Source: Rhodospirillaceae bacterium (GTDB lineage: Bacteria > Pseudomonadota > Alphaproteobacteria > UBA8366 > Aestuariispiraceae). Taken from it: 41,100 nt of DNA. The notes beneath the pieces are model-generated. The model was not told where the DNA came from and did not search any database. It was given only the letters and a program-made list of their open reading frames with translations. How positions within the stretch are numbered: the stretch's first letter is position 1; each line of letters begins with the position of its first letter. Position numbers and translations under genes: made by a program. Location: contig PAQY01000019.1 of the NCBI GenBank assembly GCA_002709955.1, positions 1 through 41,100 of the forward strand. The letters run 5' to 3'. Positions 20,164 through 31,437 of this stretch are shown here, piece by piece.

Positions 20164-20847
20164 ATGCGTGAGCCGACACCCCGCCTGATCGTTTTTGATT
20201 GCGACGGAACCCTGGTTGATAGCGGGCATATCATTGTCGACACCATGACCCTGGTTTGGCAGGGCGCGGGATTGGTTCCGCCGACACCTGACCAGATACG
20301 CCATCAGATCGGGACATCCCTGGATCATGCGATCGGGGCCCTGCATCCGGACGGGGACCCTGAAATTCTACAGCAGTTGACTTTAGCCTGTCGCAAGGCC
20401 TTTGTTAGTGACCGCGCAGCGGGAAAATATGAAGAACCACTTTATGAGTCCTGTAGTGGTGTCTTGGAGGCGCTGTCTGGGGTTGATCACTATGTTTTGG
20501 GCGTCGCGACCGGCAAGGGGCGTCGCGGCCTGAATCACACCCTGCAGCGCCATGGCATTGCGCATCATTTCAGCATTCTGAAGACAAGTGAGGATGGACC
20601 CGGAAAGCCGCATCCTGAAATCTTAATAAATGCGATGGCGGAAATGGGCGTTTCCCCATGGCAAACCGTTGTGATTGGCGATACCATCTTTGATGTGACG
20701 ATGGCGGTACGCGCTGGGGCCAAGGCAATCGGTGTTTCCTGGGGGTATCATGCCCCGGAGATGCTGAAAGAGGCCGGGGCCAGTGTGATTGCCAATCACT
20801 TTGCTGAGTTGCCCGGCTTAATTGAAAACCTATGGAGCACGGAATAA
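20164..20847 (+). CDS. HAD-superfamily phosphatase, phosphoglycolate phosphatase-like
   Basis: The product has 227 residues. Motif I is FDCDGTLVDSG, with the nucleophile and acid Asp. Motif II is GVATGKGRRG, the Lys of motif III lies in GPGKPHPE, and motif IV is VVIGDTIFDVTMA. A cap domain lies between motifs I and II, as in subclass IA enzymes such as Gph. The substrate is not known. Its stop codon overlaps the next start (TAATG), so it is probably co-translated with the AsmA-family gene. In many alphaproteobacteria an HAD gene sits between rluC and ATP12, as here. Confidence 0.9.
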   Translation: MREPTPRLIVFDCDGTLVDSGHIIVDTMTLVWQGAGLVPPTPDQIRHQIGTSLDHAIGALHPDGDPEILQQLTLACRKAFVSDRAAGKYEEPLYESCSGVLEALSGVDHYVLGVATGKGRRGLNHTLQRHGIAHHFSILKTSEDGPGKPHPEILINAMAEMGVSPWQTVVIGDTIFDVTMAVRAGAKAIGVSWGYHAPEMLKEAGASVIANHFAELPGLIENLWSTE

Positions 20848-26239: not shown

Positions 26240-26860
26240 CTAGGCTGAGGCGGCGACCTTCGCACTTTCAACAATCATCGGCACCTGAACCCCTGGCTGC
26301 AGAACGGCTGGGTCCCAGGCCTTGCGGGCAAAAACCTGGCGCACCATGGGTTCAAAATGCGACAGTGGCGCACTTTTATAGGTGGGATCAAAACAGTTTT
26401 CGTCCCAACGCTCGCAAAAGGTCACACAGGACTCATAATTCGGATCATCGATATATTTGGCGCGGCTTTCCGGATCGGCCCCGACCTTGGCCCCATAATA
26501 CCTCAACTGGAAAATGCCATGGTGTTTCAGGACCCAGGTGCATTCCTCCCGGACATAGGGGGCCAGAATGGCAGCCGCCATGGAATCATGGTTCATTGGG
26601 GACAGGGTGTCGCCCATATCGTGCAACAGGGCGGTGACAATCCAATCGATATCCGCACCATCGGCTTGGGCCCGTGTCGCCGATTGCAGGGAATGCTCAA
26701 AGCGACTGATCTGATAGCCGCCCAGCGATCCATCCAGCATTTTCAGATGGTCTAACACACGATCTGCCAGGCCATTGATGAATTCCTGCTCATAATGATG
26801 CAACAGGTCGTAATCGGCCTGGGTGCCGTCCCTCATGCGGGTGAAGGAAACTGTGCTCAT
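26240..26860 (-). CDS. tmpB: HD-domain diiron oxygenase, TmpB-like
   Basis: The product has 206 residues from ATG 26860, seven bases behind GAGGAG. An open frame to a TTG at 26875 runs through that ribosome binding site and is not used; ATG 26863 is also possible. The metal ligands of PhnZ-type enzymes can be placed: His56 (RFEHSLQ), His80-Asp81 (ALLHDMGD), His91, His113 or His114 (KHHGIF) and Asp153 (ERWDE). Tyr49 lies just before His56. PhnZ/TmpB enzymes use a mixed-valence diiron centre and O2 to cleave the C-P bond of an alpha-hydroxyphosphonate. TmpB releases glycine betaine and phosphate from the hydroxylated trimethylaminoethylphosphonate. Pairing with the oxygenase upstream supports TmpB over PhnZ; substrate is inferred. 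Confidence 0.72.
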   Translation of the reverse strand: MSTVSFTRMRDGTQADYDLLHHYEQEFINGLADRVLDHLKMLDGSLGGYQISRFEHSLQSATRAQADGADIDWIVTALLHDMGDTLSPMNHDSMAAAILAPYVREECTWVLKHHGIFQLRYYGAKVGADPESRAKYIDDPNYESCVTFCERWDENCFDPTYKSAPLSHFEPMVRQVFARKAWDPAVLQPGVQVPMIVESAKVAASA

Positions 26861-26901
26861 CATTCTTCTCCTCAAAATACAATCTATCCCGCTAACTGGG
26901 A

Positions 26902-28035
26902 TTATGCAGCGACCGTCTGAGCCGTCTGTGTCTGTCGAAGGTGACGGCTCAACGTGCGATATTGGCTTTCCGGTCCATCATGGTCGATATAACAGCCCTG
27001 AAGAAAGCGAAATCCGTCTTCTGCAAAGGCTGTTCTGCCATGCAGGGTGCGGTGATTGTCCATCATCAGGCAATCCCCCTTCTTTAACTTGAAGGAAAAG
27101 ACGAAGCGGGGTTCCGCCGCAAGACGGGCCAGATGCCGACGCCCCGCATAAAAGGTTTTCAGGGTTTCCGGGTCAACAGCGGGGGCGAAATCCAGGCGGG
27201 TCGACAGGCGCAATTGGCGCAGATTGCCCGATGAATCCAATCGGATCATCGGCGCGGTTTCCCGGTCATTCACATCCTTGGACAGATATCGGAACGAAAT
27301 CGGCAGGCTGCTGAGAACATCATACTCCGCAGGGGATTGCTGTTTCAGCGCGGTGCAGATCGACAGGCCATCGACAATCGTGCTTTCACCGCCCGTCGCG
27401 TCATTGGCCAGACAGTGCAGGAATTGGATCCCCGGCACGGACCGGCGATAGGGATTATCTGTGTGCGCGGTCAATGCCAGCCCGGTATAGGCCAGATCCG
27501 TCGCGACAGCTTCGGTGCGGACATTAAACAGCCGCCCCCAATTGGTTTCTCGGATCGGGCCAAAAACCTGTGCGATATCCAACAGGCTGTCTTCCGTGCT
27601 GGGCGTGTCGCGCAACAGGGCAAACCCGTATTTGAAGAATCCATCCAGAACCTGATGCCGGGCCCAGGAATCATGGCGGTTTTCCCACTGCAGAATGGGT
27701 GGTGTCAGCGTGTCGATGGTCCAGGGGGTCGGTTGCGGCAGGTCGTCCGGATGGGTCTGTAACCCGGCCTCTATCATCATCCGTTCCAGTGGATAGAAAT
27801 GCCGGTGACCGTCGGAAAACAGAATCTCCACCCCCTGGTCATTCGCCTGTGCCTCCACAATTGCCAAATCGTTTGGTAATTGGGTTGGATCATAGAACCG
27901 CTGATAGCTGTTATGATCAATCTGGTCCGGCGCGTCACTCAATTGCCGCAGCCACTCCGCCATCAGCGGGATGACCTGACCCTGATGGTGCAATTCCAGA
28001 AACCCGGACTCCCAGTTCATTTGAAAACCAGCCAC
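26902..28035 (-). CDS. tmpA: 2-oxoglutarate/Fe(II) oxygenase, TmpA-like
   Basis: The product has 377 residues and belongs to the gamma-butyrobetaine hydroxylase type. Fe ligands are His191 and Asp193 (AHTDNPY) and His332 (TLHGRTAF); Arg343 probably holds 2-oxoglutarate. Trp166 and Tyr183 fall where the hydroxylase forms its aromatic cage for a trimethylammonium group. The N-terminal domain is kept, but the cysteines that bind zinc in the hydroxylase are absent (WLRQLSDAPDQ instead). TmpA hydroxylates 2-(trimethylamino)ethylphosphonate for TmpB, and the tmpB-like gene starts 41 bases after the stop codon. GTG 28035 has AAAGGG upstream; TTG 28053 and ATG 28020 are alternatives. A true gamma-butyrobetaine hydroxylase is the main competing call. 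Confidence 0.68.
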   Translation of the reverse strand: MAGFQMNWESGFLELHHQGQVIPLMAEWLRQLSDAPDQIDHNSYQRFYDPTQLPNDLAIVEAQANDQGVEILFSDGHRHFYPLERMMIEAGLQTHPDDLPQPTPWTIDTLTPPILQWENRHDSWARHQVLDGFFKYGFALLRDTPSTEDSLLDIAQVFGPIRETNWGRLFNVRTEAVATDLAYTGLALTAHTDNPYRRSVPGIQFLHCLANDATGGESTIVDGLSICTALKQQSPAEYDVLSSLPISFRYLSKDVNDRETAPMIRLDSSGNLRQLRLSTRLDFAPAVDPETLKTFYAGRRHLARLAAEPRFVFSFKLKKGDCLMMDNHRTLHGRTAFAEDGFRFLQGCYIDHDGPESQYRTLSRHLRQTQTAQTVAA

Positions 28036-28119
28036 GGTGCGCCCTTTCGCCAATATCTACTGTGGTGGAAAATTCAATAATTCTTGTCGCAAAAAAACCC
28101 ATAAAATGGCAATGCCTAT

Positions 28120-28136
28120 CATAACATAAAGTTATG
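28120..28136. promoter_or_regulatory. Inverted repeat, possible LysR operator
   Basis: CATAAC (28120-28125), five bases, GTTATG (28131-28136) is a perfect interrupted palindrome in an AT-rich divergent promoter region. The second arm includes the ATG of the LysR gene at 28134. LysR regulators often bind such sites near their own promoter to control themselves and the divergent target. No -35/-10 pair could be assigned. Confidence 0.45.
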
Positions 28137-29048
28137 AAAGAAATTCGACACAGCCTGCCTTCTTTGAATGCGCTGGCGGTCTTTGAGGCCGCCGGGCGTC
28201 TGGGGGGATTCACCAAGGCGGCAGAAGAGTTAAGGATCAGCCAGCCTGCGGTCACCCGTCATATTCGGGGGCTTGAGGAGTCGCTGGGGCGTCCATTATT
28301 CGTGCGCAGTCATAACCGCATCGCCCTGACAGAAGCCGGTCTTCGGCTGTGGCATGCGGTTAATACCGGGTTCGGGGATATCGCCCAGGTCGTAGAGGCA
28401 TTGCGTCGGCAGGAGGAGGCGCGGTCCCTGACATTTGCAACGCATTCAGGGTTTGGACAGGAATGGCTGATGCCGCGCCTGAATGATTTGCGCGCGGATC
28501 TGGGTGGGCGCACGATCAACCTGGCGATTGTTGACAGTTCATCAGATTTTGACCGGACCGATTTTGACGTTGCGGTGCGCCATGGGCGGGGCGATTGGCC
28601 GGGTATGGAGGGGGTGCTGCTGCGCCCGGAAACAGTCTTACCCCTGATCAGTGCCGGACTGGCGGCAAAACGCCCGGAACTTTTGGTGGCGACTCCAGAA
28701 GACCTGATGACAGAACGCCTGATCCATATGGACGAGGGGGATCGACCCTGGATGAGCTGGGCAGTGTGGTTCCGTTTGGCCGGGGTCCATCGCACCCCCC
28801 CGCCTGCAAATGTCCGACTGAATAACTATCCATTGGTTATCCGGGAAATTCTGGTGGGAAATGGTGTTGGTTTAGGGTGGCGTCCCCTGGTGGATGAAAT
28901 GATATTGGCGGGGACGCTGGTGCCTGTTGGTCCGGAAGTGGTGCGGGAAGAATATGGCTGGTGGCTGGTCTGGCGCGATGGCGTGCGGGACCCCAGCTTT
29001 GATCAGATCCGGCGCTGGATACAAATTCAGTTAATCGACCCACCATAA
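28134..29048 (+). CDS. LysR-family transcriptional regulator (GcvA-like)
   Basis: The product has 304 residues. The winged helix-turn-helix is clear ([20 protein letters not shown], then [20 protein letters not shown] and [17 protein letters not shown]). An effector domain of the GcvA/AmpR type starts near residue 95. The gene is divergent from the tmpA/tmpB pair with about 98 bases between starts, so it is the likely regulator, perhaps responding to a quaternary amine phosphonate. No ribosome binding site precedes ATG 28134 and no other Met fits, so translation may be leaderless or weak. Confidence 0.9.
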
Positions 29049-30684: not shown

Positions 30685-31437
30685 ATGGAAAAGAAAAAAC
30701 TAAATATTTACTTTTTTATCGGTCAAACAATCCGCACGATCCAAACAACAGAAATCCATCATAGATCCCAGCCTGACAAAGGCGTTTTTTATGATGTTCA
30801 GCGGTTAGTGAGCGCGCTGGATGAAGTTGGCTTAACGGTGTCAATGGGGGTTGCAGAAAAATTTTTAGGTCGCATGCGGGAATGGTCGCCGAATGGTGAT
30901 TTTATAGTGAATGATAGTAAGAAGAAGTTTATCGAAAGAAACATTCGAAGTGTATTTGATTGTATGAATTCAGAGATGAATAATTCGTTCGTTTTTTCTC
31001 TGACGCAGAAACAGTTTGATGTAAATAATCTTATGTCAGATATGCCCAAAATTATCGGCGTTGATGTTTATGAAAAACTTCCGGGTTTGGCAAAGTACGA
31101 TTTTGATGAAGCAGGAAAATGTATCGCGTTTGAAAGGTCGACAGCAGCAGCATTTCATCTCATGCGATGCACCGAATGCGTTCTGAATTCTTTTTATGAA
31201 AAGCATAAGAAACAGAAAAGATTGAAAAATAGAATGTGGGGACCGATAGTAAGCGAGTTAAGAAGTTTACGTTCCCCGCCACAAAAGGTTCTGCTAGATC
31301 ATTTAGATAATATTCGAAGTAATTTTAGAAACCCTACGCAGCATCCAGAAAAAATTTACGATCTATCTGAGGCTCAGAATCTTCTCCATGTTTGTATTGA
31401 TGTAATAAGCCGGATGGTTACCGACAAGAAATGGTAG
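30685..31437 (+). CDS. HEPN-like protein of unknown function, AT-rich insertion
   Basis: The product has 250 residues and no confident family assignment. It is mostly helical. Residues 142-165 (EAGKCIAFERSTAAAFHLMR) resemble HEPN proteins, and Arg215 to His220 (RNPTQH) fits the HEPN R-x4-6-H RNase motif, followed by HPEKIYDLSEAQNLLHVCID. HEPN domains occur in toxins, anti-phage nucleases and RNA-processing factors. Base use is very different from the neighbours: GC counts of 27 and 35 percent in two 60-base lines sampled, against well over 50 percent around it. That suggests recent transfer into the pcc locus. No toxin partner or mobility gene is adjacent. Confidence 0.7.
   Translation: MEKKKLNIYFFIGQTIRTIQTTEIHHRSQPDKGVFYDVQRLVSALDEVGLTVSMGVAEKFLGRMREWSPNGDFIVNDSKKKFIERNIRSVFDCMNSEMNNSFVFSLTQKQFDVNNLMSDMPKIIGVDVYEKLPGLAKYDFDEAGKCIAFERSTAAAFHLMRCTECVLNSFYEKHKKQKRLKNRMWGPIVSELRSLRSPPQKVLLDHLDNIRSNFRNPTQHPEKIYDLSEAQNLLHVCIDVISRMVTDKKW

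Follow-up and report, generated by a model that had tools for sequence, protein, structure and literature searches.

The window analysed here, a 41,100-nucleotide stretch of a 4.2-Mb Rhodospirillaceae genome (G000:C19:1-41100), carries two adjacent minus-strand genes whose products, OxA and HD-X, may act together as a two-step oxygenase module whose substrate is a quaternary-ammonium amino acid rather than that of TmpA/TmpB, a proposal to which we give even weight with its alternatives taken together. OxA resembles TmpA and gamma-butyrobetaine (GBB) hydroxylases, and HD-X is an HD-domain oxygenase-like protein. ORF calling confirmed both genes where a preliminary description had placed them, and their strong homology, together with conservation of the pair in distant taxa, rules out a chance pair of reading frames. 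That description had read them as a TmpA/TmpB-like pair for an organophosphonate carrying a quaternary amine. The quaternary-amine part of this claim stands, whereas an organophosphonate substrate finds no support in the loop region of HD-X, the active-site residues, the model cut-offs, a tree or the gene neighbourhoods. That the substrate is of betaine type and not a phosphonate seems to us fairly likely; that it is trimethyllysine itself is a tentative guess, supported by an aspartate switch in OxA and by a carnitine context.

By its sequence features, OxA classifies as an Fe(II)/2-oxoglutarate oxygenase of the TauD/GBB hydroxylase type, with an HxD...H triad, a 2-oxoglutarate-binding arginine and a TauD domain (PF02668) scoring 164 bits against a cut-off of 27. 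Its iron ligands, H197, D199 and H338, could be placed as the preliminary description had proposed, and these residues and the arginine R349 are invariant in 22 of 22 relatives of a chosen set (the odd hydroxylases L070, L091 and L124 and the overlong L087 were left out of alignments A4 and A5). Among solved structures, the best sequence match is TmpA (6npb, E=1.3e-59), followed by human GBB hydroxylase (BBOX, 2.6e-30) and DfmD (6e-24). An AlphaFold2 model built from 21 sequences (predicted local distance difference test score 89) likewise has TmpA as its nearest fold, with a template modelling score of 0.83, and BBOX as the second-closest solved structure, at 24% identity in the fold match. 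On curated models OxA appears related to TmpA (334 bits, cut-off 400), GBB hydroxylase (250, cut-off 414.75) and trimethyllysine dioxygenase (168, cut-off 268.3), and falls below the cut-off of all three. As a control, the TmpA encoded beside a YxxE protein in Halomonas urmiana (L098) reaches 563 bits on the TmpA model, and the OxA of the same locus 346. Aromatic residues are kept at the cage positions W172, F176 and Y189; the first and last of these are the Trp166 and Tyr183 that had been named as cage positions in the preliminary description, renumbered for the 383-residue form used throughout.

The acid-binding end of the active site is where OxA departs from TmpA. In TmpA, the phosphonate is bound by Asn187, Asn287 and Arg288, as described in the available part of one report (PMC9296572); we located these residues after correcting for a six-residue offset in the PDB sequence. 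The corresponding residues of OxA are D186, T285 and R286, so that one of the three phosphonate ligands is kept, with the OxA segment S284-T-R286-L-D288 aligned to TmpA 286-290. Residue counts were made from alignment rows, which include near-copies, and from gene adjacency, after removal of the duplicates L019, L024, L025, L028 and L013. Among OxA-like rows adjoining HD-X, 24 of 26 have Asp at TmpA position 187, and the two exceptions with Asn, L091 and L124, are both distant. OxA-like rows adjoining a YxxE protein (n=16) have Asn187 and Arg288 without exception (16/16 each) and Asn287 in 11 cases. The rows with Asp at position 187 (D-type) mostly read S-P-R-L-D at 286-290, and the window S-T-R-L-D. 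The trimethyllysine hydroxylase TMLH has Asp231 at the equivalent of BBOX Asn191, and this residue is thought to bind the alpha-ammonium group, according to the accessible portion of a second source (PMC7764450); D186 of OxA falls at this position when placed by way of BBOX Asn191. With the Asp switch at position 187 and the cage aromatics retained, the sequence suggests that the substrate is not a phosphonate but combines a quaternary ammonium group with an alpha-amino acid head. Further short OxA-like 2-oxoglutarate oxygenase genes or fragments, with Ser at position 187, adjoin the TmpA/YxxE-HD pair downstream of the YxxE genes (L055:3-884 and L058:2656-3690); both were excluded from the 16 YxxE-linked rows and from the tree.

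A rapid maximum-likelihood tree (57 rows) shows the same division; it was made without bootstrap, has a long branch for human BBOX and includes the switch columns. The window OxA falls in a 30-row set (Shimodaira-Hasegawa-like approximate likelihood ratio test, SH-aLRT, 98) composed of 23 HD-X-linked rows, six unlinked rows and one odd row. A separate 19-row set (SH-aLRT 97) holds TmpA, 15 other YxxE-linked rows and three unlinked rows, and the YxxE-linked row L063 lies outside both. The preliminary description had proposed tree placement as a check and grouping with true GBB hydroxylases as the outcome that would count against it; both search and tree place OxA nearer TmpA than BBOX, although outside the TmpA set and within the HD-X-linked one. 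An association between D-type OxA and HD-X is also seen at the level of genomes sampled from the window's class: HD-X is present in 9 of 10 genomes with D-type OxA versus 72 of 278 other genomes (Fisher p 6e-5, the window's genome left out and genomes not independent). Among the ten, G030 is the one without HD-X, and the pair is adjacent in four. Of the matches in the OxA search of 289 genomes, 30 came with a locus, the others being unclassified.

HD-X keeps, by sequence, the H...HD...H...H...D pattern of the HD-domain oxygenase fold group that includes PhnZ, TmpB and MIOX. Its metal-ligand positions H61, H85, D86, H96, H119 and D158, placeable as earlier proposed, are invariant in 49 of 49 sequences and aligned with those of the YxxE family. 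Homology to PhnZ (E=2.6e-5) and TmpB (2.6e-4) is detectable with the single sequence and strengthens to 3e-11 for PhnZ with a 49-sequence HD-X profile. The predicted fold resembles PhnZ, TmpB and MIOX and is closer to oxygenases than to HD hydrolases, with PhnZ as the top structural match (20-23% identity; MIOX 14-15%). By analogy with these enzymes, HD-X may use a diiron centre and O2 for an oxygenase activity. The view that it is PhnZ-type had overlooked that the YxxE loop before the first metal histidine, YIGE in PhnZ and YLGE in TmpB, is not found in HD-X; the window reads LGGY, with Y54 in the place of the Glu without a gap. The 12 YxxE comparison proteins were chosen by that motif and so carry it in 12 of 12 cases by construction. 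Curated-model scores are far below the cut-offs for Phn-HD (38 bits, cut-off 214.6), TmpB (31, 300) and HMP-PhnZ (22, 300), and also below that of the MIOX Pfam model (20.6, 25). The absence of YxxE and the low scores rule out an ordinary TmpB. In alignment, HD-X also has neither the AKRY lysine nor the LQGG segment of C-P cleaving proteins; alignment A3 was made after 38 of the 80 HD-X rows had been set aside for their similarity to other rows.

HD-X is widespread: it was found in 82 of the 289 genomes sampled from the window's class (E up to 1e-20) and, in a second set, in named marine groups such as SAR11, SAR116 and Rhodobacteraceae. In 33 of 80 named loci it lies directly behind a 2-oxoglutarate oxygenase, which is of the OxA/TauD type in 19 and of the PhyH type in 14; L091 has a divergent GBB hydroxylase-like gene beside HD-X. 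Where an adjacent PhyH partner is full-length, it shares 40-50% identity with the PhyH of locus L067. This locus has the same arrangement as the window, with 69% identity in HD-X and 57% in the LysR-family regulator (other LysR genes reach 40% or less), but its hydroxylase is PhyH; no close PhyH was found in the window's genome (34 bits). Because OxA is replaced by PhyH within an otherwise kept LysR/HD-X module, this swap suggests that HD-X receives the same product, or a similar one, from either hydroxylase. A quick HD-X tree with many weak forks gave no clean split by partner type (11 changes for OxA, 12 for PhyH). Among 30 genomes reached via HD-X loci, 14 have an OxA-like match (E up to 1e-20), the best of which, at 212 bits, is below the HD-X-linked rows of most loci; a PhyH partner of at least 45% identity is encoded elsewhere in 7 of 28 (L078 and L113, with adjacent PhyH, left out). 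In H. urmiana (L098, 8858-13302), an OxA/HD-X pair adjoins a TmpA/YxxE-HD pair, with a LysR-like gene between them on the other strand, and a cell that keeps both pairs probably uses them on different substrates. On a Phaeobacter inhibens plasmid (L148:12013-14495), HD-X carries an inositol oxygenase family annotation, and behind it come a gene of the sterol desaturase family, a different type of hydroxylase, and a PanB-like gene. The PhyH/HD-X pairs of Rhodobacteraceae (L078, L082, L083, L106 and others) recur close to the same gene cluster, whose member in L072 is valyl-tRNA-synthetase-like.

Where neighbours of HD-X could be named, several belong to betaine and carnitine metabolism. Homologues of carnitine dehydrogenase and BKACE occur in the flanking sequence of 6 of the 80 loci, of which three are from SAR11 and one each from Comamonadaceae, Rhodobacteraceae and Mesorhizobium; we estimate that well under one such locus would be expected by chance in 80 loci (1.39 Mb), assuming one copy per 4-Mb genome. 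The SAR11 loci (L118, L119 and L139) also contain an acetoacetate-CoA ligase and a second GBB hydroxylase-like gene, which in L139 scores 322 bits (cut-off 415), and the first two an aldehyde dehydrogenase. In L116, HD-X lies between the BKACE and carnitine dehydrogenase genes, and a PhyH 66% identical to that of L078 is encoded elsewhere in the genome; in G161 HD-X is beside the same two genes and OxA elsewhere; and in G159 (L159) a D-type OxA relative is beside them with no HD-X nearby. BCCT betaine transporters adjoin the pair in two loci, L069 and L102, and in L086 a gene from their cluster is found opposite OxA. On the Pseudomonas aeruginosa plasmid pF045_1 (L147, 33-13841), the pair is followed by genes for a choline-type binding protein, a choline dehydrogenase-like protein (GMC oxidoreductase) and a betaine aldehyde dehydrogenase-like protein; the cluster also contains an 837-aa two-domain CoA transferase, an iron alcohol dehydrogenase and, inside it, IS66 genes. 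It may resemble a ddd cluster, and dimethylsulfoniopropionate-like degradation was considered for it. No phosphonate genes were seen as neighbours of the HD-X/OxA pairs apart from TmpA/TmpB of L098. Genes of the MttB methyltransferase superfamily occur near HD-X in L069 (1778-5363), downstream in L110 and in L125, and a NADH:flavin oxidoreductase family gene in L069 and L110.

Elsewhere in the window's own genome, contig C5 carries a run of genes whose products are BKACE, L-carnitine dehydrogenase (453 bits against a cut-off of 414), an acyl-CoA dehydrogenase, a CoA ligase and a protein resembling crotonobetainyl-CoA hydratase (342, cut-off 500), opposite a GbdR-like regulator (319, cut-off 480). 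Of the six TauD matches in this genome, OxA is the sole GBB hydroxylase-like type. The C5 operon could process GBB without a GBB hydroxylase, if OxA and HD-X made it. PhnJ of C-P lyase is encoded on C1, and C6 encodes a PhnZ-like YLGE protein (G000:C6:160539-161072; L163; L171:8468-9073) at 209.8 bits, just below the cut-off of 214.6; by-eye inspection of the called ORFs of an 18-kb stretch revealed no hydroxylase gene beside it.

We propose that the module, probably under the divergent LysR regulator, would work like PhnY*/PhnZ and TmpA/TmpB on a different substrate. OxA would hydroxylate a carbon of a quaternary ammonium molecule, most likely one with an alpha-amino acid head, with N(CH3)3 held in the aromatic cage, the alpha-ammonium by Asp186 and the carboxylate by Arg286. 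HD-X would then bind the hydroxylated product at its diiron centre and use O2 to cleave the bond beside the new C-OH. By analogy to PhnZ and MIOX, the C-OH would bind Fe1 together with a neighbouring donor (in an amino acid, the alpha-amine) and O2 would bind at Fe2, after which hydrogen would be abstracted from the C-OH carbon and the adjacent bond would break. Both the order of steps and C-C rather than C-P cleavage are suggested by this analogy. The most likely single substrate would be N6-trimethyllysine, which OxA would convert to 3-hydroxytrimethyllysine and HD-X to GBB and a two-carbon, glyoxylate-level fragment; GBB could then be processed by the carnitine-type operon on C5. In its boldest form, which we regard as doubtful, HD-X would be a widespread new family of HD-domain diiron oxygenases that cleave C-C bonds of beta-hydroxy amino acids supplied by a TauD-like OxA or a PhyH-like hydroxylase; the window's organism would convert trimethyllysine to GBB by two steps that depend on oxygen, dispensing with the aldolase and aldehyde dehydrogenase that eukaryotes use on the way to carnitine, and so feed bacterial carnitine catabolism, in SAR11 too.

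Several observations weigh against an amino-acid betaine as the substrate. The phosphonate ligand Arg288 of TmpA is kept in OxA and could bind either acid; the position of TMLH Asn334 is Pro or Thr in most D-type rows; and OxA scores lower on the trimethyllysine dioxygenase model than on that of TmpA. Carnitine genes accompany only the 6 of 80 HD-X loci mentioned above, half of them from SAR11, and most loci show none of the betaine or carnitine genes. An adjacent OxA- or PhyH-type hydroxylase is missing on either strand in 46 of 80 loci, and in L140 HD-X is beside carnitine genes, yet its genome lacks both a PhyH match and a close OxA, the best candidate scoring 148 bits. In L098 the pair adjoins TmpA/TmpB, a possible hint that it acts on related phosphonates.

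These points bear differently on the other explanations. A GBB hydroxylase-like OxA that makes carnitine or a homologue, which HD-X then cleaves or handles directly, would agree with the carnitine genes near some pairs, with L159, where a D-type relative lies beside BKACE and carnitine dehydrogenase and has no HD-X nearby, and with a window genome that has a carnitine operon and no other GBB hydroxylase-like TauD protein seen; we nonetheless hold it unlikely and do not favour OxA as a GBB hydroxylase, given its score below the cut-off, its placement in the tree and the Asp that it carries where BBOX binds the carboxylate with Asn191, and the SAR11 loci carry a second GBB hydroxylase-like gene as well. 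Another phosphonate, for example an aminophosphonate with an amine and a quaternary ammonium group, could be accommodated if Asp186 bound the amine, Arg286 the phosphonate and HD-X cleaved C-P; the kept arginine, the fold of HD-X and the adjoining pairs of L098 are compatible with this, but since HD-X has no YxxE, no AKRY lysine and no LQGG segment, and with betaine and carnitine genes as the named neighbours, we consider it quite unlikely.

The pair could also be a divergent TmpA/TmpB, as the preliminary description held; 2-(trimethylamino)ethylphosphonate would then be hydroxylated by OxA and broken down by HD-X to phosphate and glycine betaine. TmpA is indeed the closest characterised enzyme to OxA in sequence and fold, HD-X is nearest in fold to PhnZ and TmpB, Arg288 and the cage are kept, and the genome has other phosphonate genes; against this stand the loss of YxxE in an HD-X far below the cut-offs, the replacement of Asn187 and Asn287, the separate TmpA-type set in the tree, the maintenance of both pairs in H. 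urmiana and the lack of phosphonate neighbours seen, which together make it distinctly unlikely. Most HD proteins are phosphohydrolases, as stated in the available part of a review (PMC8177086), and the 46 loci without an adjacent hydroxylase would suit an ordinary phosphohydrolase that is merely near OxA; with a predicted fold closer to oxygenases, we judge this very improbable.

Compared with characterised systems, the quaternary-ammonium amino acid module proposed here shares with TmpA/TmpB of Leisingera caerulea (PDB 6npa-6npd) the gene order of hydroxylase then HD oxygenase, the nearest relative of OxA, the aromatic cage and the fold and metal-ligand positions of TmpB; it differs in its scores below the cut-offs, the missing YxxE, Asp186 and Thr285 for Asn187 and Asn287, and its position in a set of its own in the tree. 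PhnY*/PhnZ and the methylphosphonate system GmPhnY/GmPhnZ are related through PhnZ, the top structural match of HD-X, but PhnZ has the YxxE loop and only 20-23% identity, and the window partner is TauD-type, whereas PhnY* is of the PhyH type. Like HD-X, PhnZ is placed after a 2-oxoglutarate hydroxylase, according to accessible sections of two papers (PMC8177086, PMC10574752). OxA shares with TMLH the Asp at the BBOX Asn191/TMLH Asp231 position and the aromatic cage positions (PMC7764450, in its available part), but it differs in its score on the trimethyllysine dioxygenase model, its linkage to HD-X and the Asn334 position. BBOX has the same fold and cage positions but differs in overall identity, in Asn191 and in the model score, and MIOX differs from HD-X in its low identity and unmatched Pfam cut-off.

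The available text of the above review names only three HD-domain oxygenases, MIOX, PhnZ and TmpB (PMC8177086), and that of another paper extends the list by a PhnZ for methylphosphonate and by a fungal fusion (PMC10574752). Among the matches listed in a search mostly of literature outside subscription, titles and abstract openings held no description of the HD-X family or of a bacterial route from trimethyllysine to GBB. If HD-X is an oxygenase, it would widen the chemistry of this fold beyond C-P cleavage and inositol, provide a candidate bacterial route for trimethyllysine or other amino-acid betaines, and mean that surveys should not score genes of this kind as tmpB or phnZ.

Coordinates of the OxA/HD-X module and its putative regulator in the window
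Feature	Position	Strand	Remarks
OxA, GBB hydroxylase/TmpA-like Fe(II)/2-oxoglutarate oxygenase	26902..28053	-	383 aa from first TTG (28053)
HD-X, HD-domain oxygenase-like protein	26240..26875	-	211 aa from first TTG
LysR-family regulator	28134..29048	+	divergent from OxA; 57% identical to LysR of PhyH/HD-X locus L067

The true start of OxA may be GTG 28035 (codon 7 of the longest ORF and the end given in the preliminary description) or ATG 28020, and alignment indicates that HD-X probably starts at ATG 26860. The window opens in a ribosomal-protein region with secY, adk and rpoA, followed by genes for a protease, an AAA ATPase, AsmA, a GGDEF protein and ATP12, and then the pair. The preliminary description had noted no ABC transporter or other phosphonate gene nearby, and this agrees with our annotation of further window proteins (sets of 10, 10 and 9 from the larger ORFs), which contains no ABC transporter and no phosphonate-degradation gene above cut-off. 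A HAD hydrolase (20164-20847) scores 50 bits on the phosphonoacetaldehyde hydrolase model (cut-off 220) and higher, 86 bits (cut-off 225), as a phosphoglycolate phosphatase. Beyond the pair are propionyl-CoA carboxylase genes and genes for MFS, TauE and sensor kinase proteins. Between the two carboxylase subunit genes lies an ORF of 250 aa (30685-31437, plus strand) with no Pfam match at E up to 1e-5.
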